Shown: one piece after another, positions 3,067-37,320 of the stretch
How the letters are laid out: each line of letters opens with the position of its first letter
How positions within the stretch are numbered: position 1 is the stretch's first letter
IMG/VR virus record: IMGVR_UViG_3300035670_012729
Location: 1 to 45,110 of that record
Direction: 5' to 3' (one strand)
DNA length: 45,110 nt
Origin: a virus
Notes under the pieces: generated by a model
The model's input: only the letters and a program-made list of their open reading frames with translations
The model's database searches: none
Told to the model about the DNA's origin: nothing
Translations under genes and position numbers: made by a program

Positions 3067-4773
3067 ATGGCCCAAGCATGGTCAATAATCCGTTGGGATT
3101 CAGAGATAAAAATTAGTGGTGGCACAATATCTTACCGTATATCTTCATCAAATATTGGTGCGCCATTAAAAAGGAACCTTTCCACATCTGGTCCATTTCA
3201 AGATGGAGAATTTTTTGTAGGTTTTCGTTATGACTCTCGGCTCATAACATTGGTATTTTTTGCTGATGCAGCGAGCCTGGCGCTGGCAGATGCCATGCGT
3301 GATGATATTTACGAATTGTGGCGTGGTATTGAGGGCCAGACGGTAACGCTCAAAGTCACGCGCGATGACGGTTCTGTGCGGCTGATTGATGGCGAGGTTG
3401 TCAATGTTGTGGATTTCCCAGATGCGGTCGGTGAGCGGTATGGTGCTTCGCAACGATTCGCTGTGCAACTGGAGTGCCACGATCCGTTCTGGCGTGGTCA
3501 GTCACTGGTGGTAAAAAACATCACTGTCAATGGCACCAGCACGCTGACATATGATGGGCAATATCCGACCGAACCTATCATCAATATTGTCGGGCCGATT
3601 GCAAATCCCGTGTTGACGCAGGTGGCCACTGGTAAAAAAATTGACTTCACCGGAACAACTATTGCCGCTGGAGACAATTACCAAATTGATACCAGATATG
3701 GTTATAAAACCGTGCTCGACGACACTTCAACTAATCGCATCGCCAACCTGACCAGTGACAGTGATTTGGCTGACTTTACGCATGAAACGTTTACCCCGAC
3801 ACTATCCCGACGCTGGTCGGCAGTGGCTGCGGCTGAGGCGAATACATGGCAATCGGTCGCATACGGCAATAGCGTCTGGGTGGCAGTAGCTAGTAGTGGC
3901 ACGAATCGTGTGATGCGCAGCACGGACGATGGTGCGACTTGGTCAGCGGTAGTGGCAGCTGAGGCGAATACCTGGAGGTCGGTTGCCTATGGCAATAGTG
4001 TTTGGGTGGCTGTATCCGGCAGCGGCACGAATCGTGTCATGCGTAGCACGAATGGTGGCGTGACATGGTCGGCTGTAGCAGCGGCTGAATCCAACGCATG
4101 GGAATCGGTCGCATACGGCAATAGTGTTTGGGTGGCAGTGGCCAGCACGGGCACGAATCGTGTCATGCGCAGCACGGACGATGGTGCGACATGGTCGGCG
4201 GTAGCGGCAGCCGCTGCAAATGAATGGGAATCGGTGGCGTATGGGAATGGCGTATGGGTGGCAGTAGCCACCACCGGCACGAACCGTGTCATGCGCAGCA
4301 CGGATGATGGTGCGACATGGTCGGCGGTAGCGGCAGCTGAAGCCAACGCATGGTACTCGGTCGCGTATGGCAACGATGTTTGGGTAGCAGTGGCATACAA
4401 TGGCACAAACCGGGTTATGCGCAGCACAAATGGTGGCTCGACCTGGACGGCTGTGGCAGCAGCTGATGCCAACGAATGGTATGCGGTTTCGTACGGCAAT
4501 GGAGTCTGGGTAGCTATAGCGGGGACTGGTACGAACCGCGTAATGCGCAGCGCGAATGGCGGCGTGACATGGTCGGCTGTGGCCGCAGCTGAGGCAAACA
4601 CGTGGTTGTCAGTCGCATACGGCAATAGTGTCTGGGTGGCGGTTGCACAGACTGGTACAAACCGGGCGATGCGCAGTACAGAGTTTGCTCAGCAATACAC
4701 GCTAACGGGTACGGGAACAACCGGTATTACAGCAGTTGAAATGAAATACAACGACATCTTCCTGGGGATATAA
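3067..4773 (+). CDS. Distal tail protein with inserted seven-blade propeller, copy 2
   Basis: A tandem paralogue of the gene at 1355, of almost equal length (568 residues), with the same order: Dit-like N-terminal half, seven 42-residue Trp-rich blades, and a short C-terminal segment ending FLGI. Conservation is uneven. The first 70 residues differ substantially between the copies, but 188 consecutive bases (3505-3692) are identical to 1793-1980. The blades here are more regular than in copy 1. Two Dit-type subunits could form a mixed hub or act as alternative receptor binders. It starts two bases after the upstream stop and lies in the same operon. Confidence 0.75.
   Translation: MAQAWSIIRWDSEIKISGGTISYRISSSNIGAPLKRNLSTSGPFQDGEFFVGFRYDSRLITLVFFADAASLALADAMRDDIYELWRGIEGQTVTLKVTRDDGSVRLIDGEVVNVVDFPDAVGERYGASQRFAVQLECHDPFWRGQSLVVKNITVNGTSTLTYDGQYPTEPIINIVGPIANPVLTQVATGKKIDFTGTTIAAGDNYQIDTRYGYKTVLDDTSTNRIANLTSDSDLADFTHETFTPTLSRRWSAVAAAEANTWQSVAYGNSVWVAVASSGTNRVMRSTDDGATWSAVVAAEANTWRSVAYGNSVWVAVSGSGTNRVMRSTNGGVTWSAVAAAESNAWESVAYGNSVWVAVASTGTNRVMRSTDDGATWSAVAAAAANEWESVAYGNGVWVAVATTGTNRVMRSTDDGATWSAVAAAEANAWYSVAYGNDVWVAVAYNGTNRVMRSTNGGSTWTAVAAADANEWYAVSYGNGVWVAIAGTGTNRVMRSANGGVTWSAVAAAEANTWLSVAYGNSVWVAVAQTGTNRAMRSTEFAQQYTLTGTGTTGITAVEMKYNDIFLGI
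3814..4683 (+). repeat. Seven 126-bp propeller-blade repeats, copy 2
   Basis: Seven in-frame units with Trp codons at a 126-bp period from 3814. Variation is concentrated at a few residues per blade: those just before the second Trp and those in the loop before T-N-R. The scaffold residues are almost fixed. Confidence 0.88.
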
Positions 4774-8431: not shown

Positions 8432-8890
8432 TTACAGCCGCTCGACTCGGTACCGGGACAATGTTGCCCCGGCCTCCTCCATCTGCTCCGGGGTGAGGTC
8501 AATCCCCCGGAGCTCTGCCGGCAGTCGTGGCATATCCACCACGACTACCTCGTCTGCTTCCGCCGCCAGATGCAGCGGCAGGCTACCGTAGACAACGCGA
8601 CCAGCCACTTGGTCTGGGCTGGTCACGTGGGAGATAACCTCTCCTGTGACCCCTTGCGTTTCCAGCCATGCCACTAGTCCGGCATGGCGAGTGACAACGA
8701 TGGGGTCCACTGCCGCTTTTGGCAGCGGCCTTTTTTCTACATCCCACATTTTACAAATTTGCAGGATGTGGGACTTTTGTTCTGGAGAAATGATCTGAAA
8801 TTCCTGCATTCTCCAACCTACCGACTCCCAGTTCGGGAAGCGGTTTGGGTGCATTTGCACCCAATCTAAAATCAAATTTTCTTCCATCAT
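8432..8890 (-). CDS. Csx16-like protein (putative type III CRISPR ring nuclease family), with extra N-terminal region
   Basis: 152 residues from ATG 8890, with GGGAGGTG seven bases upstream. Residues about 62-152 match my memory of the Csx16 (Cas_VVA1548) family: a strand with VVTRHAGLVAWL, then VISHV, VVYGSLPLHLAAE, and the signature LPAELRGIDLTPEQM near the end. Csx16 occurs beside type III CRISPR loci and has been assigned to the extrinsic ring nucleases that degrade cyclic oligoadenylate. A phage copy would fit an anti-CRISPR role, by analogy with AcrIII-1. Residues 1-60 (with DWVQMHPNRFPNWE) are unrecognised. It is the third gene of the operon from the promoter at 9942-9970. Confidence 0.6.
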   Translation of the reverse strand: MMEENLILDWVQMHPNRFPNWESVGWRMQEFQIISPEQKSHILQICKMWDVEKRPLPKAAVDPIVVTRHAGLVAWLETQGVTGEVISHVTSPDQVAGRVVYGSLPLHLAAEADEVVVVDMPRLPAELRGIDLTPEQMEEAGATLSRYRVERL

Positions 8891-9008
8891 TAGTGCACCT
8901 CCCAGTGCTGGTCTCCCCTCTGCATTTGCCGGCTTGGGACGGTCAGCTGGACACCTGCCAGCTGGCTGCATTAGAGTGCCTGGTTTAGCCGCCAGGCTCG
9001 GCACTGGG
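8891..9008 (-). promoter_or_regulatory. Structured intergenic leader, copy A
   Basis: 118 bp between the stop of the 9009 gene and the Csx16-like start. On the minus strand it contains three pairings: CCCAGTGC (9001-9008) with GCACTGGG (8901-8908) beside the SD site, a GCCTGG/CCAGGC hairpin, and a 7-bp stem (8944-8950 with 8958-8964). It is closely related to copies B (9591-9706) and C (14829-14930). Confidence 0.65.
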
Positions 9009-9590
9009 TTATTCGTCAACCTCCTTGTCCAGAGTGGCCAGGAGTGCCCATGCCACTGCCTGGTCGTCTTCCGGTTCCGGTGCCGGCTGCCCGGCTACTG
9101 CCAGGCCACCGGCGTCCACTTCAAAGCGAAGTGGAACGGTCTGCCACCCCATATAGGATGGCTGGAAAACTTCCACCTCCCGAATTGTCATCTCCTCTTC
9201 AACCGGATGGTTGAGGAAGAGCGGCCAGCAGAGTGGGGCCAGGTCGCCCAGCCACACTCGAATCCCCTGGTTGAGCTTCCCGTACATGCTGACATGTATG
9301 GTCGCTCGGACTGGGAAGTCCCCAGTCACAACATCCCGGCATTCCCGGAGGCGGTAGTTTTCCGCCCCCGACATTCCCACCTTGCGTTCGGTGGCGTACG
9401 GATTGCGGCGGCTACCCGCCGCCGCGTTGGCGGCCTCCCGCATGGCTGGCCATGCCTCGATTGCCAGGGCCAAATGCCCGGGGCGGGGAGCCGGGCCCGA
9501 CAGGTGGCCCATCACGAACTGCGTGCCATCGATTGCGATGGCAAAACGACCATTGCTCTCCGTCACAAAGTGCTTGATGAAGTTTTCCAT
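9009..9590 (-). CDS. Hypothetical protein of accessory operon
   Basis: 193 residues starting at ATG 9590 with GGGAGGTG upstream. No membrane segment or known motif was recognised. The C-terminal end is acidic (EPEDDQAVAWALLATLDKE). It sits second in the three-gene operon that ends with the Csx16-like gene, so a counter-defence or host-takeover role is possible but not shown. It is flanked on both sides by copies of the structured leader, so each downstream gene carries its own translation-control region. Confidence 0.65.
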   Translation of the reverse strand: MENFIKHFVTESNGRFAIAIDGTQFVMGHLSGPAPRPGHLALAIEAWPAMREAANAAAGSRRNPYATERKVGMSGAENYRLRECRDVVTGDFPVRATIHVSMYGKLNQGIRVWLGDLAPLCWPLFLNHPVEEEMTIREVEVFQPSYMGWQTVPLRFEVDAGGLAVAGQPAPEPEDDQAVAWALLATLDKEVDE

Positions 9591-9920: not shown

Positions 9921-9941
9921 TTGTTTTTGACTGATATACAT

Positions 9942-9970
9942 AGTATAGCAGGGTTCGCACCAAAAGTCAA
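9942..9970 (-). promoter_or_regulatory. Sigma70-like promoter P1
   Basis: On the minus strand TTGACT (9965-9970), a 17-bp spacer and TATACT (9942-9947). It lies in a gap between genes, reads into the 58-residue acidic protein, and is nearly identical in layout to P2 at 15489-15517. Confidence 0.8.
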
Positions 9971-9992
9971 CAGGTTTCCGAAAAACTCATCC

Positions 9993-12804: not shown

Positions 12805-12882
12805 CTTGACCCGGTCCACTTTACGGCCGATCTTCAATTTGGAGGTGCGCCGTGCGCAACTGACACCGGGCTCCAGGGTTAT

Positions 12883-12972
12883 TTACGGTACCGACACCAT
12901 CGCCCCGGCAGCGGCCAGGACGATGATCACCACTGCGGCCGCCACGAGGGAAAAACAGCTGAATCTATCCAT
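12883..12972 (-). CDS. 29-residue single-pass membrane peptide
   Basis: A short frame from ATG 12972 with GAGGAA five bases upstream, overlapping the Cys-rich gene by eight bases. It has a short charged start (MDRF) and then one hydrophobic helix (VAAAVVIIVLAAAGAMV). Size, ribosome site and coupling match the other tiny membrane peptides of this operon. Confidence 0.5.
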   Translation of the reverse strand: MDRFSCFSLVAAAVVIIVLAAAGAMVSVP

Positions 12973-13153
12973 AGATTCCTCGCAGTGGCCGCCCCTCGTA
13001 GCGCTCCCGGCTGTGGCATGCACAGTCGGGCGAACTGCAGATGTGCAACGTGTGGCGCACATCTGCCCTGCACACGCACAGGTTCTGGCGTGGGCAGCGC
13101 GTCTGACAGCGCTCGCTCTCGCGTGTTGTTGGTGCTGGCAGTAGAGGTTTCAT
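12965..13153 (-). CDS. Cys-rich putative zinc-binding protein
   Basis: 62 residues from ATG 13153 with GGAGG six bases upstream. It contains seven Cys and several His in the order CQTRC, then CVC, then H-T-L-H-I-C, then DCACH, which could bind one or two zinc ions. Basic overall. Not recognised; perhaps a small nucleic-acid-binding or adaptor protein. Confidence 0.5.
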   Translation of the reverse strand: MKPLLPAPTTRESERCQTRCPRQNLCVCRADVRHTLHICSSPDCACHSRERYEGRPLRGIYG

Positions 13154-13202
13154 GCTGCCTCCGTCGGTGGCTTGATGCCTGACCCGCCATGTGTTGGCCG
13201 TC

Positions 13203-13313
13203 TCACAGTCCACCTCCTGCCGACATCGACATGGCCAGCATGCCGATCAAACCGAATATGCCCAAACCCATCATGATGTAGAACAACACTCCGTACCCTC
13301 GCTCCTCATCCAT
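13203..13313 (-). CDS. 36-residue single-pass membrane peptide
   Basis: A short frame from ATG 13313 with AGGAG seven bases upstream. It has an acidic start (MDEERG) followed by one hydrophobic helix (GVLFYIMMGLGIFGLIGMLAM) and a Gly-rich end. It follows the RecT-like gene by about 45 bp. Confidence 0.5.
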   Translation of the reverse strand: MDEERGYGVLFYIMMGLGIFGLIGMLAMSMSAGGGL

Positions 13314-15437: not shown

Positions 15438-15480
15438 TGCACCTCCGTGCGTGTGGGGGCGGGCCCCCTGAATCAAATTG
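15438..15480 (-). promoter_or_regulatory. 5' UTR hairpins of the P2 transcript
   Basis: On the minus strand a GGGGG-CCCG-CCCCC hairpin is followed by GCAC-GGAG-GUGC, so the SD sequence forms the loop of a small perfect stem. The layout is the same as in the P1 leader. Confidence 0.6.
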
Positions 15481-15488
15481 ATATACAT

Positions 15489-15517
15489 AGTATATCATGA
15501 TTGGCATCAAAAATCAA
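15489..15517 (-). promoter_or_regulatory. Sigma70-like promoter P2
   Basis: On the minus strand TTGATT (15512-15517), a 17-bp spacer and TATACT (15489-15494), followed by ATGTATATCA exactly as at P1. Confidence 0.8.
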
Positions 15518-15658
15518 CGGTTTTTGAAAAACTCAACCTTAAATTTTGCGTCTTTTCCCGCATGCGATACACTATGATTGTCGGCAGTCAATCAGTCCCT
15601 ATGGAATTTGCCCGCTGTAGGAATTGAACTGCTGGAGCACTCGAATACGCATCGCCGG

Positions 15659-15700: not shown

Positions 15701-17059
15701 TCACGCCAGGCGGATGCCACGAACCACGTATCCCGAGGTCCCGCCACGCCCGCCGACCGTCGTGCGACGAACCGACAGGCCACGAACGTTGAGACGACGC
15801 ATCAGCTCCGCCTGGGGATGACGCTCCGCCTGGGGGATGCCCTCGTCGTCGCACCACATGGTGTATGCGGTGTGCAACTGCTTTGCCGTGCTCTCTGCAT
15901 CGGCTTCCATCACGCACGCATCTGTCAGCCAGCGGCCGAGCGAATCCGACAGGCTGCGCATCTGCTGCGTCGTCTCGGTGATGGTGGTCGGCACCGGGCC
16001 CAGACCGTGCCGGTACCACGCCATTGCACCTCGCACCAGCCAGGCGGCGATGCCACGTCGGTTCTCGTCGCTCAGCAACCTGTTTTTCAGCGTGCGATCC
16101 TCCGTGCCACTGTTGGAGTTGGGGAATGCGATGACCCTCATGCGTGTCTCCCAAAACGCCGTGTCGTCCGGCGGCGCTTTGGGCGGATAGTTGCTGGCCA
16201 GTACGATCAGCCAGACTGGGATAGCCGTGTACGGCGTTTTGTATTTCTGCTCCACCGACAGTGGGTCCCGGCCCGTCGCCGATTTGAGCATGCCAGTGTT
16301 GAGCATTTGTTCGGTGCGGGTCTCCTGCGCCTGGACAAGGCGTGCTTCGATCAGGCTGGCCAGCGCAAAATTGCGTCCACTGCGCCGGTCGATGAATGTG
16401 TCCATATCCGTGCTGGCCGCCAGTGGGCCCAACACGGCGTGGATGGTGTTGAGAAATGTCCCTTTGCCCGAACGGGGCGGACCGTAGATGTAAAGCAGGA
16501 CCTCTTCACTCGTCTCGCCCGTGGCGGCGTACCCCATCAGCCGATGCAGGTACTGGCGCAGGCTGATGTCGCCCCCGATCCACTGGGAGATGCACTGCTC
16601 CCACAGCTCACTTTCAGCGCCGGGGTCGTATTCGATGTCCAGGCAGTAGGTCTGGCGCTGCGCATGGTCGTGGGGAATTAGATCGCCAGTACGCATATCG
16701 ACCAGGCCATTGAGGAAATTCAAGTGGTGCACGACTTGGCGGAACTCAGCATCGTCCACCGCCACATATGCCTGGAGCAGAAACATTGCATCCCGAATAT
16801 GTTTCGTCGATGGGAACGAAGATTTGGTGAGACGGTCGTCCGACCGTTTCACGCCCTCGACCGCCCTGGCGCGCAACGATTCAGTCACATCCCGTTTCGC
16901 CTGGGCCTCGTCAGGATGCCAGTGCGTTCCGCACCAGACCATCCATCCTCGACCAGCGGTGTACAAAATTTTGCCCGCCGTCTGGGCCATCACCCATAGG
17001 CAGTTGCCATAGTCGTTTGCCTCGGCCAGTGATTTTATCAGGTCGTTTTGCTCAGACAT
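15701..17059 (-). CDS. Phage/plasmid primase-type SF3 helicase (D5/P4 family)
   Basis: 452 residues from ATG 17059, with GGAGAA upstream and an eight-base overlap with the prim-pol gene. The N-terminal ~170 residues match the D5/P4 N-terminal region (TAGRGWMVWCGTHW, then HHLNFLNGLVDMRTG). A Walker A motif GPPRSGKG lies near residue 195, and VWLIVLASNYPP lies farther on in the SF3 core. The C-terminal part (LGRWLTDACV onward) is a winged-helix-type tail. It should be the ring helicase that opens the origin and works with the adjacent prim-pol. Confidence 0.85.
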   Translation of the reverse strand: MSEQNDLIKSLAEANDYGNCLWVMAQTAGKILYTAGRGWMVWCGTHWHPDEAQAKRDVTESLRARAVEGVKRSDDRLTKSSFPSTKHIRDAMFLLQAYVAVDDAEFRQVVHHLNFLNGLVDMRTGDLIPHDHAQRQTYCLDIEYDPGAESELWEQCISQWIGGDISLRQYLHRLMGYAATGETSEEVLLYIYGPPRSGKGTFLNTIHAVLGPLAASTDMDTFIDRRSGRNFALASLIEARLVQAQETRTEQMLNTGMLKSATGRDPLSVEQKYKTPYTAIPVWLIVLASNYPPKAPPDDTAFWETRMRVIAFPNSNSGTEDRTLKNRLLSDENRRGIAAWLVRGAMAWYRHGLGPVPTTITETTQQMRSLSDSLGRWLTDACVMEADAESTAKQLHTAYTMWCDDEGIPQAERHPQAELMRRLNVRGLSVRRTTVGGRGGTSGYVVRGIRLA

Positions 17060-17894
17060 GCAATTTCTCCCTGTTGAGCAGCCATCGCCAGCCGCCCATG
17101 CGAGCCGCCTCCAGCACACGGCGACATCGCTCGTGCTGGCAACCGGCAGAGATGTGGCCGTCCCTGGCCACGATGATGTATGCCGCCCGATCCTGGGCAT
17201 GCAGGTCGTCGGCTGGACAAAATGGGCACGAACGGAAGATCCATTTCCGCCCGCCCCGGTCATACTCGCTCTCCGGATACGTCTGAATTCCGGTCGCTGC
17301 CAGCACAGCCAGGACGATATCCCTGGATGCAACGACCTCGCTGGAGTTCGGAGCGCCGACAACGCGGCGCTGGCCGCCAGACTGCTCGAGCAGCGTTTGC
17401 ATTGCTAGCGGCAGCTGCAGCAGGGCGATCTCGTGCGGTCCGTAGCCCAGCTCCCAGCGATACGGCGTACCGTTGGGATGCACCGACGGCGGCAAAACAA
17501 TGTACCCGCCCCAGCCCCGGATGTCCACCCCAGCCGGCATGCCGGTCGCCCGGTTGCTGTAGCGCTGGCCGTCGTCCACCCGGTACAGCAGATGAGTTCC
17601 GCCGCTACCGGTCAGGCTGGTCACTGTCTCTTGGTCGGCCGGGTCCAGAAGAGACTGGCCGGCATACACCTCTTTATACGCATCGTGGTCGATGGCCAGC
17701 AGGCCAGACCCACCACAATGCAACCCGATGTTGGCGTCGGGCCACCTGCGCCACCATGCTGCCACCTGGCCCAGGGCGGTCGTGGCCGAGTAAACGCCCA
17801 GCCCGCCGAACGGCTCTTTCGTGCCAGGTCGCAACGGAAACACCGCCCATCCGTGGCGCGCATACCACGTGGCGGATTTTGACAAGTTACTCAT
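17052..17894 (-). CDS. Bifunctional primase/polymerase (prim-pol)
   Basis: 280 residues if started at ATG 17894, just before YARHGWAVFPLRPGTKEP, the usual opening of prim-pol domains. The catalytic acidic pair is visible at LLAIDHD (about residue 68). GTHLLYRV and GVDIRGWGGYIVLPPSVH follow, as in the archaeo-eukaryotic primase-polymerase family. The C-terminus has a zinc-ribbon pattern (CPFC, then C-x-H-x-x-C). It should make primers for replication with the helicase encoded next. No strong SD site precedes 17894; a nine-codon frame with a strong site ends there (17891-17920). Confidence 0.8.
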   Translation of the reverse strand: MSNLSKSATWYARHGWAVFPLRPGTKEPFGGLGVYSATTALGQVAAWWRRWPDANIGLHCGGSGLLAIDHDAYKEVYAGQSLLDPADQETVTSLTGSGGTHLLYRVDDGQRYSNRATGMPAGVDIRGWGGYIVLPPSVHPNGTPYRWELGYGPHEIALLQLPLAMQTLLEQSGGQRRVVGAPNSSEVVASRDIVLAVLAATGIQTYPESEYDRGGRKWIFRSCPFCPADDLHAQDRAAYIIVARDGHISAGCQHERCRRVLEAARMGGWRWLLNREKLHV

Positions 17895-17920
17895 ACGGGT
17901 GTACCATAATGAAGCTTCAT
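17891..17920 (-). CDS. Nine-codon leader cistron coupled to prim-pol
   Basis: ATG 17920 is preceded by AGAAGGAG at ideal spacing, and the frame ends at a TGA overlapping the prim-pol ATG (ATGA). Prim-pol itself has no good SD site. The short frame may load ribosomes that reinitiate on prim-pol. It could instead be chance, with prim-pol starting upstream in its own frame. Confidence 0.35.
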   Translation of the reverse strand: MKLHYGTPV

Positions 17921-17941
17921 GCATCTCCTTCTGCGAACATG

Positions 17942-17970
17942 AAAACGCCGGGCTCATCCCCCGGCGTTTT
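17942..17970 (-). terminator. Terminator between RHH regulator and prim-pol
   Basis: A perfect 11-bp stem (AAAACGCCGGG 17942-17952 with its complement 17960-17970), starting at the RHH stop codon and ending in TTTT on the minus strand. It would make prim-pol expression depend on read-through. Confidence 0.7.
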
Positions 17971-18146
17971 CATTTTACAACGACCCCAGCTGCGGTGACC
18001 TCTACCCGACGGCTCTCGCTGGCCGCCCGGACAAGCTCACGCAGCACCCAGCCGGCTGAGCGGTCAGCGCGACGGGCCAGCTCTTCCAGTTGCTCTTTTT
18101 CCTCCGGCCGAAGCCGGAGTGACATGGTTTCTGATTTTTGCGACAT
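17970..18146 (-). CDS. RHH regulator (CopG/Arc type)
   Basis: 58 residues from ATG 18146 with GGAGG five bases upstream; the frame extends farther but without a ribosome site. The start SETMSLRLRPEEKEQLEELA, followed by RSAGWVLRELVRAA, fits the strand-helix-helix fold. It is the first gene after a promoter that carries two direct repeats, so it probably represses its own transcription and that of the replication genes. Confidence 0.75.
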   Translation of the reverse strand: MSQKSETMSLRLRPEEKEQLEELARRADRSAGWVLRELVRAASESRRVEVTAAGVVVK

Positions 18147-18189
18147 GGGACCTCCTATCCCGCGGGCTGAAGACAAACTACATGCACAC

Positions 18190-18217
18190 ATTGTATCACA
18201 GTGTCATACAGTGTCAA
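18190..18217 (-). promoter_or_regulatory. Promoter with tandem operator for the RHH/replication operon
   Basis: On the minus strand TTGACA (18212-18217), a 16-bp spacer and TACAAT (18190-18195). Overlapping it are two direct repeats of ACAGTGTCA (18198-18206 and 18208-18216, plus-strand reading), ten bases apart, which is one helical turn. That spacing suits cooperative RHH binding. Confidence 0.75.
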
Positions 18218-18233
18218 AAAGCAACGGCGACGG

Positions 18234-18262
18234 TTGCGACAACACGGCCGACGTGATATGCT
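18234..18262 (+). promoter_or_regulatory. Promoter for small RNA
   Basis: TTGCGA (18234-18239), a 17-bp spacer and TATGCT (18257-18262), facing away from the RHH promoter. A start near 18269 would give a transcript of about 130 nt ending at the terminator at 18366-18401. Confidence 0.5.
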
Positions 18263-18268
18263 ACCAGT

Positions 18269-18401
18269 GTAGACAGACAAGCCCCACCCAGGGGCGAACA
18301 TGACGCCACGACCTCCCGATACGCGTCATGGTGGTGCACCGCCCAGGTGCGACGAACTTGGTGGTGGGGCTGAGCAGCCGACGGCTCAGCCCCTTTTTTT
18401 T
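18269..18401 (+). ncRNA. Candidate structured small RNA
   Basis: Between a promoter and a strong terminator lie four stem-loops and no convincing gene. They are GCCCC/GGGGC (18281-18295, loop ACCCA), CATGACGC/GCGTCATG (18299-18330), GCACC/GGTGC (18336-18350, loop GCCCA), and the terminator stem GGGGCTGAGC/GCTCAGCCCC (18366-18393) with eight Ts. Loops 1 and 3 share the sequence CCCA. A 60-codon frame runs through it but has no SD site and continues through the terminator. Possible roles: antisense regulator, replication control RNA, or anti-defence RNA. Confidence 0.5.
18366..18401 (+). terminator. Strong intrinsic terminator
   Basis: A perfect 10-bp GC-rich stem (18366-18375 with 18384-18393), 8-nt loop, then eight Ts at 18394-18401. 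Confidence 0.85.
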
Positions 18402-18429: not shown

Positions 18430-18760
18430 CAGCCACACCCGTATGCACCTCGGTATGCATACCGTATGCACACCAACAGTAGCTACCTGCCACCTGTATA
18501 CGCAAAACAGTAGATAGCCGGGGGCAAACTACAATGTATGCGCGGTATGTCGGTATGCAGTACTAACTTTTCGTATACACGCGTATATGAAAAAGTTACT
18601 GCTGCATACCGACATACGCTGCATACCGGCATACGCGCTCAGCCAGAATAGCATATGGCGTGTCGCTGTATACTGAATTCAGCATATGGTGTGCAGCAGC
18701 ATACTGTTTTGCGTATGCATACCGGCTGCATACCGGTGCAGCGCCACCCTGCATACGTAA
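18430..18760. repeat. GTATGC iteron and palindrome region, candidate replication origin
   Basis: About 330 bp without a gene, holding at least a dozen GTATGC/GCATAC hexamers plus GTATAC and CATATG variants in both orientations. The centre (about 18542-18620) is a long inverted repeat. One arm reads GTATGTCGGTATGCA, then AACTTTTC; the other reads GAAAAAGTT, then TGCATACCGACATAC, around a TATACACGCGTATA core. The same element recurs at 37212-37320. The position between the replication operon and the rightward early operon suits an origin. Confidence 0.6.
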
Positions 18761-19352: not shown

Positions 19353-19686
19353 AACCGTTGCTTTGGGTATCAGCAGTTATTCCACTATCAATGCTATCAA
19401 TATTCCTCTCTGTGATGACAACGGAAGAATTGTCTTCACCGGATGGAATGAGCAGCTCCATATTCACAAGGCAGTCGCTCGCGTGAAAAACGGCATTCCA
19501 AATCCCAAGGAGCGGCCAGTGTTGGAGCTGCCTTGGTCTCTGACGTTTGATGTCGGCTATGTGGAAAACAAATTTTGCACGATTGAGAATCTGCGTCAGG
19601 CGTTTGATATGGGAGGTACTCTGGGTTTGGGCACATTCCGGCCCATATTTGGCAGATATCAATTGTCTCAGTGGGATATTGCATAA
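19129..19686 (+). CDS. Unrecognised phage protein with Gly-rich C-terminal motif
   Basis: 185 residues from ATG 19129, with AAAGGAG five bases upstream. The N-terminus (VRLEGLRPLMFDRYAG) and the C-terminal motif GLGTFRPIFGRYQL resemble a phage protein family I recall only as hypothetical. The end recalls the Gly-rich loop of RAMP/Cas7-like folds, but that is speculative. The fold seems alpha/beta without membrane segments. The GGCNN arrays begin four bases after its stop codon. Confidence 0.65.
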   Translation: MSMQKQKTISVRLEGLRPLMFDRYAGDNNTQLPTAEKMYLTPDMGLVIPAINILSLLAAENTKSVCRQFFGKNGKTVALGISSYSTINAINIPLCDDNGRIVFTGWNEQLHIHKAVARVKNGIPNPKERPVLELPWSLTFDVGYVENKFCTIENLRQAFDMGGTLGLGTFRPIFGRYQLSQWDIA

Positions 19687-19689
19687 CAC

Positions 19690-19794
19690 GGCGCGGCCCG
19701 GCGCGGCCCGGCGCGGCTAGGCGTGGCAGGGCCTGGCGGGGCTCGGCAAGGCGTGGCGTGGCGTGGCAAGGCAAGGCAAGGCGTGGCGAGGGAA
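19690..19794 (+). repeat. GGCNN pentamer array 1 (20 units)
   Basis: Twenty consecutive pentamers GGCNN without a break, closed by GGGAA. The two variable bases differ from unit to unit (GC, CC, TA, GT, AG, CT, GG, TC, AA, GA). The five-base period is incompatible with a simple codon repeat. The plus strand is G-rich and could form two-layer G-quadruplexes or R-loops. Confidence 0.95.
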
Positions 19795-19850
19795 GTATTC
19801 GTGACATCGGCAAGCAGGGGCGTTCGAGCCGCCCCGTCACGATTGCCCAC
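19795..19850 (+). ncRNA. T-arm-like structured unit 1
   Basis: A 56-nt spacer between arrays 1 and 2. A 7-bp stem TCGTGAC/GTCACGA encloses an 11-nt single strand, then a 6-bp stem GGGGCG/CGCCCC with the loop TTCGAGC. The two stems abut on the 3' side as in a tRNA acceptor/T-arm stack. Confidence 0.55.
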
Positions 19851-19970
19851 GGCTAGGCCGGGCGAGGCTAGGCCCGGCAGGGCTGGGCGCGGCGGGGCGC
19901 GGCGAGGCACGGCTGGGCTCGGCGCGGCTCGGCTAGGCGTGGCATGGCAAGGCAAGGCGAGGCGAGGGAA
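19851..19970 (+). repeat. GGCNN pentamer array 2 (23 units)
   Basis: Twenty-three uninterrupted GGCNN pentamers closed by GGGAA at 19966-19970. It is the longest array. The last units, GGCAA GGCAA GGCGA GGCGA, echo the end of array 1, so array ends are more conserved than array bodies. Confidence 0.95.
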
Positions 19971-20025
19971 GTATTCGTGATATCGGCAGCAGGGGCGTTC
20001 GAGCCGCCCCGTCACGATTGCCCAC
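19971..20025 (+). ncRNA. T-arm-like structured unit 2
   Basis: A 55-nt unit that differs from unit 1 at two places: TCGTGAT instead of TCGTGAC, giving a T-G wobble with the 3' strand, and GGCAGC instead of GGCAAGC. The TTCGAGC loop and GGGGCG/CGCCCC stem are unchanged. Confidence 0.55.
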
Positions 20026-20125
20026 GGTGCGGCAGGGCTAGGCGCGGCAGGGCTAGGCTGGGCGAGGCAGGGCTAGGCGTGGCCTGGCGCGGCGCGGCAC
20101 GGCCTGGCAAGGCATGGCGAGGGAA
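20026..20125 (+). repeat. GGCNN pentamer array 3 (19 units)
   Basis: Nineteen pentamers closed by GGGAA at 20121-20125. The first unit is GGTGC, the only interior deviation from GGC seen in any array. Confidence 0.93.
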
Positions 20126-20181
20126 GTGTTCGTGACATCGGCAAGCAGGGGCGTTCGAGCCGTCCCATCACGATTGCCCAC
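20126..20181 (+). ncRNA. T-arm-like structured unit 3
   Basis: A 56-nt unit of the same type as unit 1 (GACATCGGCAAGC). The inner stem carries CGTCCC (a G-T wobble) and the outer stem has one C-A mismatch. Loop TTCGAGC is unchanged. Confidence 0.55.
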
Positions 20182-20276
20182 GGCGCGGCCGGGCTCGGCG
20201 GGGCGCGGCTAGGCGGGGCATGGCGGGGCATGGCGGGGCATGGCGCGGCCGGGCAAGGCAAGGCATGGCGAGGGAA
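20182..20276 (+). repeat. GGCNN pentamer array 4 (18 units)
   Basis: Eighteen GGCNN pentamers closed by GGGAA at 20272-20276. Three GGCGG-GGCAT pairs in a row show local dimer amplification. Confidence 0.94.
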
Positions 20277-20331
20277 GTATTCGTGATATCGGCAGCAGGG
20301 GCGTTCGAGCCGCCCCATCACGATTGCCCAG
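20277..20331 (+). ncRNA. T-arm-like structured unit 4
   Basis: A 55-nt unit of the unit 2 type. The outer stem is TCGTGAT/ATCACGA, a full T-A replacement of the C-G pair in unit 1, which is compensatory. Loop and inner stem are unchanged. Confidence 0.55.
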
Positions 20332-20381
20332 GGCTGGGCGCGGCGCGGCGTGGCTGGGCGCGGCGAGGCCAGGCCAGGGAA
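20332..20381 (+). repeat. GGCNN pentamer array 5 (9 units)
   Basis: Nine GGCNN pentamers closed by GGGAA at 20377-20381. No structured unit follows; instead a short leader with AGAAGGAGG leads into the first Trp-rich gene at 20409. Confidence 0.93.
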
Positions 20382-20408
20382 GTTCAACGACAGCAGAAGG
20401 AGGAACGC

Positions 20409-20756
20409 ATGACAGAACCTGACTGGAAGAAAGCGCCTTCGTGGGCACAGTGGTTTGCCATCGACGGCGCTGGCCGGGCTTGGTGGTATGAAATCGAGCC
20501 AACGCCGAAGTGGACTTCTTGGCGTGGGATGATATCTCACGCCGGCGAATATCTAGCCTCGGCAGCCAGAGTCCCTTCATGGGCACAATGGTTCGCTGTC
20601 GACGGCGACGGCGAAGGTTGGTGGTATGAAGTCGAGCCTACGTCGGTATGGGATTCCTCGCGTGGGATGGTATGTCGCGCTAGTGACACAACTGTCAACT
20701 GGAAAAAATCACTTCACCAGCGGCCGACAGAAGGAGAAGAACGTGACAGAGCCTGA
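20409..20756 (+). CDS. Trp-rich array protein 1 (two-domain fusion)
   Basis: 115 residues from ATG 20409, preceded by AGAAGGAGG. It contains two copies of the array domain (APSWAQWFAIDGAGRAWWYE near the start and VPSWAQWFAVDGDGEGWWYE in the middle), with DWxxSLxxRP-like NWKKSLHQRP at the end. It looks like two array genes fused by loss of the intervening stop and start. The function of the domain is unknown. It resembles small Trp-rich proteins common in phages and annotated as hypothetical. Its stop overlaps the start of the next gene by 14 bp. Confidence 0.75.
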   Translation: MTEPDWKKAPSWAQWFAIDGAGRAWWYEIEPTPKWTSWRGMISHAGEYLASAARVPSWAQWFAVDGDGEGWWYEVEPTSVWDSSRGMVCRASDTTVNWKKSLHQRPTEGEERDRA

Positions 20757-20970
20757 CTGGTCAATAGCCCCTTCGTGGGCGATGTGGTTTGCCATCAACG
20801 TCGACGGGCGAGCTTGGTGGTATGGAACAGAGCCGAAACTCAGCCAGTGGTTTGGCTGCTGGGTACCAAAACTCTGGGAAGAAAAATTTTCGTGCGAATA
20901 TGAATTTGTTGGACTACTCTATTGTGACGACTGGGAGCAGTCACTCAGGCAGCGGCCAACAGGAGAATAA
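20743..20970 (+). CDS. Trp-rich array protein 2
   Basis: 75 residues from GTG 20743, after GAAGGAG. Array pattern: EPDWSIAPSWAMWFAI, then DGRAWWY, then DDWEQSLRQRP. Over about 160 bp it is nearly identical to array protein 6 (21682), differing at only a few bases, which marks a recent block duplication. It is the only array member with a GTG start. Confidence 0.72.
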   Translation: MTEPDWSIAPSWAMWFAINVDGRAWWYGTEPKLSQWFGCWVPKLWEEKFSCEYEFVGLLYCDDWEQSLRQRPTGE

Positions 20971-21231
20971 ATGGAACCTGACTGGACGGAAGCCCCTTCG
21001 TGGGCGCAATGGCTTGCCGTCAACCGAAGCGGCTCGGCGTGGTGGTGGGATGCCAAGCCAGTGGCCAACCAAAAAACAGGCTGCTGGAGAATCACCGACG
21101 AGAATTACATGCGGTATCACGCCGGCAGATACCCCGCGGGCGATGACTGGCGGCGGGCTCTCAGGCAGCGGCCAGAGTTGGGCGCTGCGGAACAATTGTA
21201 TTTGTTTGCAGGAGTAACGCATGCAACCTGA
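20971..21231 (+). CDS. Trp-rich array protein 3
   Basis: 86 residues from ATG 20971, immediately after the previous stop, with AGGAG upstream. Array core EPDWTEAPSWAQWLAV and AWWWDAKP, ending DDWRRALRQRP. A 14-residue C-terminal tail (ELGAAEQLYLF and on) is unlike the other members and overlaps the next start by 11 bp. Confidence 0.72.
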   Translation: MEPDWTEAPSWAQWLAVNRSGSAWWWDAKPVANQKTGCWRITDENYMRYHAGRYPAGDDWRRALRQRPELGAAEQLYLFAGVTHAT

Positions 21232-21463
21232 CTGGACGACAGCGCCCTGGTGGGCGCGGTGGTTCACCGTCGACGATGACGGTGGAGGTTGGTGGTGGAA
21301 AACAAAACCGAAACCCAGAAAAAAAAGTGGCCGATGGCTCGGGCCAGATACCAGAGAATGGTATTACGCTCAGCCAGCCGGCGTCTACCCCGAATCTGCC
21401 ACCGACTGGCAGAACTCACTTTGTCAGCGTCCAACAGAAGGAGGAGAACATGACAGAACCTGA
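21221..21463 (+). CDS. Trp-rich array protein 4
   Basis: 80 residues from ATG 21221, with AGGAG upstream. Core QPDWTTAPWWARWFTVDDDGG, followed by a basic stretch KPKPRKKSGRW unusual for the otherwise acidic array, then TDWQNSLCQRP. The last codons lie over the ribosome site of the next gene. Confidence 0.72.
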   Translation: MQPDWTTAPWWARWFTVDDDGGGWWWKTKPKPRKKSGRWLGPDTREWYYAQPAGVYPESATDWQNSLCQRPTEGGEHDRT

Positions 21464-21695
21464 CTGGACGACAGCCCCTTCGTGGGCACAGTGGTTCACC
21501 ATCGACGACGACGGATACGGTTGCTGGTGGGACACCCAGCCAGTGGCCAACAAAATGATCGGTTGCTGGCAGGTGGACATGTCCAGCGACTGGTACGACA
21601 CGCAGCCAGCTGGCATATACCCTGACGCTGCAGACGACTGGGAGCACTCGCTCAGGCAGCGGCCAGTAGGAGGAGGAGAGCATGACAGAGCCTGA
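21450..21695 (+). CDS. Trp-rich array protein 5
   Basis: 81 residues from ATG 21450, after AGAAGGAGGAG. Core EPDWTTAPSWAQWFTIDDDG, a middle segment with MIGCWQVDMSSDWYD, and the end DDWEHSLRQRP. It shares PVANK-type wording with protein 3, suggesting exchange between members. Confidence 0.72.
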   Translation: MTEPDWTTAPSWAQWFTIDDDGYGCWWDTQPVANKMIGCWQVDMSSDWYDTQPAGIYPDAADDWEHSLRQRPVGGGEHDRA

Positions 21696-21927
21696 CTGGT
21701 CAACAGCCCCTTCGTGGGCGATGTGGTTTGCCATCAACGTCGACGGGCGAGCTTGGTGGTATGAAACAGAGCCGGAACTCAGCCAGTGGTTTGGCTGCTG
21801 GGTACCAAAATTCTGGGAAGAAAAATTTTCGTGCGAATACGAATTTGCTGGACTACGCTATTGTGACGACTGGGAGCACTCGCTCAGGCAGCGACCAACA
21901 GAAGGAGGAGAGCATGACAGAGCCTGA
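21682..21927 (+). CDS. Trp-rich array protein 6
   Basis: 81 residues from ATG 21682, with GGAGGAGAG upstream. It is the near-identical sister of protein 2 (APSWAMWFAINVDGRAWWYE, FGCWVPKFWEEKFSC). Here the GTG start is ATG and the C-terminus is longer (TEGGEHDRA). Confidence 0.72.
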   Translation: MTEPDWSTAPSWAMWFAINVDGRAWWYETEPELSQWFGCWVPKFWEEKFSCEYEFAGLRYCDDWEHSLRQRPTEGGEHDRA

Positions 21928-22168
21928 CTGGTTACTCGCCCCCAAATGGGCAGAGTGGTTCGCCGTCGATGATGACGGCGAAGCATGGTGGTATGAAACA
22001 AAGCCATATATTAAAACAAAATACGGTGTATGGCGACACGAGTTTCATCCAGAACCAAACATCTATTGGAGCTGTGAATATGCCGGTAATTACCCCGACG
22101 CTGTAGACGACTGGGAGCACTCGCTCAGGCAGCGGCCAGTAGGAGGAGAAGAGCATGACAGAGCCTGA
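21914..22168 (+). CDS. Trp-rich array protein 7
   Basis: 84 residues from ATG 21914, with GGAGGAGAG upstream. Core EPDWLLAPKWAEWFAVDDDG and AWWYETKPY, then an aromatic middle (NIYWSCEYAGNYP), then DDWEHSLRQRP. Strongly acidic. Confidence 0.72.
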   Translation: MTEPDWLLAPKWAEWFAVDDDGEAWWYETKPYIKTKYGVWRHEFHPEPNIYWSCEYAGNYPDAVDDWEHSLRQRPVGGEEHDRA

Positions 22169-22376
22169 CTGGAATCAATCCCCTTCGTGGGCAGAGTGGT
22201 TCGCCATTGATGACGACGGCGAAGCATGGTGGTACGAGACAAAGCCCCACGCCAAAACGAACGATGGTATGTGGCGGCAAGAATTTCCCGGGAACATTTA
22301 TCGGAGTTCCGAGCATGCCGGTGTTTACCCCGAAGCCGCCGCCGACTGGCAGGACTCGCTCAGGCAGCGCCCATGA
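22155..22376 (+). CDS. Trp-rich array protein 8 (last)
   Basis: 73 residues from ATG 22155, after GGAGGAGAAGAG. Core EPDWNQSPSWAEWFAIDDDG, then AWWYETKP, ending exactly at ADWQDSLRQRP. It lacks the GGEHDRA tail because no array gene follows. Its stop overlaps the next, unrelated gene by ATGA. Confidence 0.72.
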   Translation: MTEPDWNQSPSWAEWFAIDDDGEAWWYETKPHAKTNDGMWRQEFPGNIYRSSEHAGVYPEAAADWQDSLRQRP

Positions 22377-22789
22377 GCACACTGATCACACTCACCGCCG
22401 ACCGGCGCGCCATGTGCGTGCGCGCTGCGTACAAACACCGGGACATCATGCTCGACCTGCCAGCCAACATGCGACGAGGCGTGCGTGACGAGACCGGATT
22501 CTGGTGGCGCGTGGCGCTGGCAGCGTACGACATTGTCGTGTTCGCTTTGCCGGATGCCAGCGTCGACTACGACGTGCTGGTTGCCCTGGACGGCGTTGAC
22601 ACGCGGACGCCGGCGGCCAGGCACTACCACGCCAAAAACACCACCGCCCCCAAACACACCCAACCGGACACCATTCTCGTGACGCCGATGGCGTCCGACG
22701 ACGTGGACAAAATGTTGGCATTCAGCCGGTTTGCCGCCCAGCACTCGGCAGCCTGGCAGCGCGCTGAGCAGAAGAAACGACGACAATGA
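22373..22789 (+). CDS. Hypothetical protein after Trp-rich array
   Basis: 138 residues from ATG 22373, overlapping the last array gene by ATGA. The N-terminal half has a helical region (RRAMCVRAAYKHRDIMLDLP) and hydrophobic strands. The middle is a Thr/Pro/His-rich linker and the C-terminus is a basic helix (AEQKKRRQ). Not recognised. A strong terminator follows its stop, so it is the last gene of the array transcript. Confidence 0.6.
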   Translation: MSTLITLTADRRAMCVRAAYKHRDIMLDLPANMRRGVRDETGFWWRVALAAYDIVVFALPDASVDYDVLVALDGVDTRTPAARHYHAKNTTAPKHTQPDTILVTPMASDDVDKMLAFSRFAAQHSAAWQRAEQKKRRQ

Positions 22790-37211: not shown

Positions 37212-37320
37212 GTATGCACGTATGCAGCGTATGTCGGTATGCAGTAACAACTTTTTATATACACGCGTATATGAAAAAGTTACTCGTGCATACCGACATA
37301 CCATGCATACGCGCATACAT
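37212..37320. repeat. Second copy of the GTATGC palindromic element
   Basis: Closely related to 18533-18640: GTATGTCGGTATGCA, AACTTTTT, the core ATATACACGCGTATAT, GAAAAAGTTACT and TGCATACCGACATAC, in the same order. Arms of about 35 nt can fold into one long hairpin. A further small hairpin TGGCGG/CCGCCA (37321-37337) follows. It fills the 153-bp gap 37209-37361 between two head genes. Confidence 0.85.

Follow-up and report, generated by a model that had tools for sequence, protein, structure and literature searches.

Two Iteron-Flanked Palindromes in a 45-kb Phage Genome as Probable Sites of a D5-Family SF3 Helicase

The window analyzed here, the whole 45,110-bp IMG/VR virus record IMGVR_UViG_3300035670_012729 (positions 1 to 45,110), contains two similar palindromes of about 100 bp, one beside replication genes (site 1) and the other between head genes (site 2). 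Both are probably origin-type iteron sites bound by the phage's own D5-family SF3 helicase. This reading, in which we infer helicase binding, origin activity, and the role of each copy, draws on what was observed of the anatomy of the sites, their conservation, the concerted change of their iterons, the association of such palindromes with D5_N helicases, a core shared with phage BIP-1, and the co-variation of helicase and iterons in the sister records G057 and G058.

Site 2 is a 107-bp palindrome with no assigned strand (37212 to 37318), whose 45-nt arms are 84% complementary and enclose a 33-bp core, AACTTTTTATATACACGCGTATATGAAAAAGTT (37249 to 37281). Site 1, likewise without strand, is a 99-bp palindrome (18536 to 18634) in the divergent region beside the prim-pol and helicase genes, with 36-nt arms that are 86% complementary (18536 to 18626) and the core AACTTTTCGTATACACGCGTATATGAAAAAGTT (18565 to 18597). 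The two are 87% identical and lie 18,684 bp apart in register, confirming the claim of the first-pass annotation that one palindromic element of ~100 bp occurs twice in the same arrangement, 18.7 kb apart, with arms that stay complementary in both copies; the difference between copies that it quoted (AACTTTTC/CGTATAC against AACTTTTT/ATATAC) is also correct. At both sites, the arms consist of tandem GTATG(C/T) iterons, spaced by 8 or 9 bp and inverted around a shared palindromic core, AACTTT..TATACxCGCGTATA..AAAGTT, of which the window's two versions are not perfect palindromes. Each arm of site 2 has four iterons (37212, 37220, 37229, and 37237 on the plus strand; 37288, 37296, 37305, and 37313 on the minus strand; spacing 8/9/8), and the arms of site 1 have three and four, with extra clusters of GTATGC iterons to the left (18441 to 18469) and right (18699 to 18756) of the palindrome.

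These two places stand apart from the rest of the window by several measures. A 20-mer of arm sequence, allowed up to 3 mismatches, has four matches, in both arms of both copies, where shuffles would give 0.04; GTATGC is present 48 times, the expectation being 22.7, and is clustered at sites 1 and 2. By gapped palindrome score the sites rank first and second (28.5 and 24.0), the next score being 14.5. A model built from the wider class of core-bearing palindromes described below (R1, which is a sequence model only, as RNAalifold gave no common pairs and no structural RNA or DNA model resulted) likewise matches the window at sites 1 and 2 and nowhere else. Rfam and ARAGORN scans found nothing.

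The surroundings of the two sites differ. Site 1 lies between divergent genes, about 0.6 kb upstream of the prim-pol gene. To its left, on the minus strand, are genes for an adjoining ribbon-helix-helix (RHH; Arc/CopG-like) protein (17970 to 18191; PF01402, 1.2e-5; phrog_3431), an archaeo-eukaryotic primase of the Prim-Pol type (17052 to 17957; PF09250, 7.6e-39), and a D5_N/DUF5906 SF3 helicase of 452 aa (15701 to 17059; PF08706, 4.9e-15; PHROG primase/helicase families), which is the putative initiator, with a RecT-like gene farther on; to its right is a GIY-YIG-like gene. Promoter-like matches fall about 320 and 180 bp from site 1, outside the palindrome. The major capsid gene is followed by one further gene, and site 2 occupies the 153-bp gap behind that gene, about 20 kb from the replication genes; no promoter- or terminator-like match was seen in its palindrome. 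Among the window proteins scanned, there was no match to a DnaB-type helicase or to a ParA-type protein. Back-translated patterns of the helicase protein retrieved no viral relatives, a prim-pol search retrieved one weak relative with no site in its fetched segment, and the AlphaFold model of the window helicase, at a pLDDT of 36, was unusable.

Other features of the window were recorded alongside. Beside site 1, a short region (18250 to 18400) that ends in a strong terminator-like hairpin (GGGGCTGAGCAGCCGACGGCTCAGCCCC TTTTTTTT) is largely conserved in the related contig L020 and is possibly a small RNA gene. A palindrome of the TGATATACATAGTATATCA type is repeated near minus-strand genes, at 9932 to 9984 and 15479 to 15531 in the window and at about 3104 and 5145 in L124, and is present in the relative G015 too; it is likely a shared promoter or operator. 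The product of a minus-strand gene at 8432 to 9019 has a C-terminal Cas_VVA1548 (Csx16-like) domain (PF09652, 2.4e-21), and this may be a phage-borne, CRISPR-associated gene for counter-defence. At 19684 to 22380, diverged modules arranged in tandem, each of about 230 bp, encode a run of small similar proteins, with similar proteins in L020, L108, and G015. Both contig ends (1 to 990 and 43754 to 45079) carry repeats in tandem, 138 and 132 bp long (46 and 44 codons), and since G015 is continuous across the region matching these ends, the record probably broke in the repeats and is near complete.

Comparison with relatives shows that both copies are kept, which the first-pass annotation had expected of a pair of sites. 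The site 2 palindrome is found in the same gap in 12 of the 12 relatives that cover this head-gene gap, namely, ten viral contigs (about 73 to 78% identity around the gap), L117, and G015, the 12 being at about 75 to 80% identity; site 1 is found on L020, at 96% identity. Because these contigs are independent of the window, a chimeric assembly, raised earlier as a possible source of one copy, is unlikely. The more distant relative L085, with a capsid 54% identical, has a gap of about 61 bp that lacks the element, and no target duplication was seen there. Among the near relatives that cover the gap, none has an empty site.

In most of the relatives the outer GTATGC has become GTATCC, both in the direct repeats within an arm and across the arms. 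The arms meet directly, with the spacer absent, in L106 (which is one contig with L081). That repeats within one arm change together points to a sequence-reading protein rather than to RNA pairing. The head genes of L020 belong by similarity to the GTATCC group, and its site 1 region has a GTATCC palindrome with its own GTATCC cluster, so that both places carry the iteron type of the lineage. Next to this palindrome, in the stretch that is 96% identical to the window, is one of the GTATGC type; the two stand side by side at 12845 to 12955 (GTATCC) and 13108 to 13207 (GTATGC), each with its own iteron cluster. Judged by its sequence, L020 resembles a recombinant carrying both types of origin. 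No RHH gene is evident at the matching place in this contig.

Scans of a viral collection with patterns of the core yielded a class whose members are otherwise unrelated to the window. The core is palindromic in these unrelated contigs as well, and it is flanked by other inverted iterons: TCTGAGAWTCTCAGA in L131, L159, and L164; AGGTGAG in L177, L181, G053, G054, and G055; GGGTGTG in G056; TTGGTGAA in G057; and AGTGAAG in G058, with G021 as a weaker case of the core palindrome. Of about 16 records with the core palindrome, nine (the window, G018, G019, G021, G053, G054, G056, G057, and G058) have a D5_N helicase gene, most of the others being fragments, compared to 1 of 41 controls, which were random records or chance-match records without the palindrome; Fisher's test gives a P value of about 1e-5 for 9/16, with related records counted as separate. 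Seven of the nine helicases are 53 to 100% identical to one another, while those of the window and G021 are only 27 to 32% identical to them.

The arrangement of sites varies within the class. The related phages G053 and G054, both close to 45 kb in length, carry a pair of sites apiece; within each pair the iteron type is the same, the sites are separated by 23.6 kb (G053) or 17.9 kb (G054), and one of them lies 1 to 3 kb past the helicase gene. G054 has in addition a third core-bearing palindrome with other iterons and arms (ATAGCTTGTAAGCTATTA), at 15638 to 15727 of L204 (about 35682 in G054). Four core palindromes are present on each of the short contigs L131 (9.5 kb; at 3753, 6374, 6482, and 7694) and L164 (4.1 kb), which is more than a pair of origins needs, and sites of the class lie in divergent, convergent, and same-direction gaps. 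Beyond the class, genome contigs searched for exact copies of an 18-mer, taken from the AT-rich side of the core, gave only chance matches, and a scan of the class to which G068 belongs (391 genomes) produced five weak matches, none palindromic, a result that proves little with 11 candidates scored per genome. NZ_CP050099, MK318083, and PQ867842, which match over 17 to 28 bp around the core centre and lack the palindrome, were rejected as chance matches. ON453893, in which iterons and one half of the core lie beside a helicase of the VapE type, is possibly a distant case of the class.

Which protein reads the iterons is a question on which one sister pair, G057 and G058, outside the window's own family, is informative. 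The helicases of the two are identical over 473 residues, with nine differences that all fall in the last 20, and the iterons, which lie a few bases past the stop codon, are AGGTGAAG in G057 and AGTGAAG in G058. In a model of the G058 protein with a mean pLDDT of only 51, although about 74 to 89 at residues 421 to 493, the differing residues are predicted to lie in the beta-hairpin wing of a C-terminal winged helix. Such co-variation at the sequence level is what reading by the helicase would predict, and the C-terminal domain of SCCmec Cch2, a helicase of the D5_N type, binds its iterons (PMC7581432). As the 3' end of the helicase gene adjoins the iterons in both records, however, the two could have been transferred together in a single recombination tract. 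The GTATCC lineage yielded no helicase sequence.

The sites could instead be operators or centromere-like sites whose iterons are coated by the RHH protein, or by another regulator, for gene repression or for the pairing or partition of genomes, and we consider this unlikely. RHH proteins bind short repeated half-sites, and the gene adjoining site 1 could encode the iteron reader, a point against the origin reading, as are the positions of site 1, upstream of the prim-pol gene instead of directly 3' of a replication gene, and of site 2, about 20 kb away; the several sites in different intergenic gaps of L131 would also suit a regulator. Yet the promoter-like matches lie outside the palindromes, sites occupy divergent, convergent, and same-direction gaps alike, L020 shows no RHH gene at the matching place, and no ParA-type protein was matched among those scanned. 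Moreover, a local repressor gives no explanation for the helicase family and the long core that the class has in common.

The palindromes would also form a long hairpin in RNA, and the position of site 2 inside the head operon is one where such a transcript hairpin might end transcription or set mRNA processing between head genes. We find a role at the RNA level quite improbable, as site 2 has no terminator-like match and no Rfam match, site 1 is in a divergent gap with extra iterons, and direct repeats within an arm change together, which pairing does not require; the abutting arms of L106, where the spacer is absent, count against an RNA hairpin as well.

Several class members carry a 14-bp sequence, TATACGCGCGTATA, that is identical to the centre of the N15 telomere site telRL (NC_001901.1, 24775 to 24830; L224, 1276 to 1331), a match due to chance or to common descent. 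Cutting and rejoining of the sites by a protelomerase or a tyrosine recombinase, corresponding to the resolution site of the first-pass annotation, is nonetheless very improbable. A protelomerase (PF16684) was absent from the window and the class members searched, including G053 and G054, whereas that of N15 was detected as a positive control, and a tyrosine recombinase was absent from the window, G053, and G054. The flanks of the 14-bp match are unrelated, the window's own cores are imperfect palindromes, and class genomes often have more than one site. Finally, a mobile palindromic element of the MITE or REP type, suggested by two similar copies in one genome and by the lack of the element in L085, is extremely improbable given its presence at the same place in 12 relatives with no empty site among them, only two copies in the window, and no target duplication.

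Among the alternatives listed by the first-pass annotation, a second origin fits best because the copies are conserved, their iterons change in concert, and the class is tied to D5_N helicases and to the BIP-1 stem-loop; the fit is to an origin in which binding and activity are what we infer. As we envision it, the C-terminal winged-helix domain of the D5_N helicase would recognize the GTATGC iterons, two hexamers facing in opposite directions would form on the inverted repeats and open the palindromic core between them, and synthesis would then be primed by the Prim-Pol of the neighbouring gene. Site 1, beside the prim-pol and helicase genes and flanked by extra iterons, is likely the main origin. 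Site 2 would be a second site for the same initiator in the late genes, by analogy to SPP1 oriR; it could serve as a late origin, or the bound initiator could form a block at which forks stall, as proposed for oriR, and such a block may help to switch replication from circle-to-circle to concatemer.

A broader and more speculative possibility, which we put forward tentatively, is a widespread modular origin in which one core is used by distantly related D5-family helicases with exchangeable iteron arms that vary together with the wing in the last ~20 residues of the helicase, the origin having been duplicated in some phages into the late genes, where the bound initiator would be a barrier to forks and start the concatemer switch. 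If so, the 14-bp match to N15 would be a hint that a core of this kind gave rise to hairpin telomeres. Most tailed-phage origins are unmapped, and with a core and iteron arms that can be searched for, sequence would reveal origins in many phages and satellites that have D5 helicases. The G057 and G058 pair makes the DNA-reading code of D5 initiators directly testable, and the head-gene copy offers a new place for studying the theta-to-concatemer switch, for which SPP1 is, to our knowledge, the model.

In SPP1, gp38 binds both oriL and oriR; the latter is inside late genes and has been proposed to stall replication forks, triggering concatemer replication (PMC3485210, PMC6316719). SPP1 is a siphovirus of 44 kb with one site in a replication gene and one in the late region, about 12 to 13 kb apart, and the window fits this early and late anatomy; G053 and G054 have two sites too. 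Unlike the window, with its D5_N protein, SPP1 uses gp38, gp39, and the DnaB-type gp40 rather than an SF3 helicase, and its origins consist of direct repeats and an AT-rich region.

Phage P4 ori1/crr is an iteron origin of a self-loading SF3-type (P4-alpha) helicase, and the helicase of G054 matches a solved DNA primase structure, 7ola (3.4e-12), which we take to be the SaPI5 primase-helicase. SaPI Rep and Cch2 are self-loading SF3-type helicases with iterons read by a C-terminal domain and two hexamers proposed (PMC7581432), and the window's SF3 helicase would resemble them in these respects. Unlike the SaPI Rep, Cch2, and P4 systems, the window's class has a long core common to phages whose iterons differ, and the arrangement and number of sites are different; the origins of SaPI and pRN1, moreover, are directly 3' of the replication gene, in contrast to site 1.

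The study of pRN1 proposed that prim-pol/SF3-helicase replicons, including phage BIP-1, start at a stem-loop of ~100 nt, which in pRN1 is essential and can be moved (PMC4234260); the passages of this 2014 paper considered here describe the stem-loop, but neither these iterons nor the shared core. In the BIP-1 stem-loop (TTGCCTCGTTTGCCTCG ... AACTTTCTCATGTACAC/GTATGAGAAACTT ... CGAGGCAAACGAGGCAA), which is single copy, we find two inverted tandem iterons (TTGCCTCG) around AACTTTCTCATGTACAC/GTATGAGAAACTT. The window and pRN1/BIP-1 thus share a prim-pol and an SF3 helicase (in the window, PF09250 at 7.6e-39 and PF08706 at 4.9e-15) and a palindrome of about 100 bp near the replication genes (here, site 1), and the window shares with BIP-1 inverted iterons around an AACTTT-type palindromic core. 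BIP-1 differs in having its one copy 3' of the replication gene, whereas the window has two, one upstream and one in the head operon. The elements of the window are most likely SF3-helicase origins of the BIP-1 kind.
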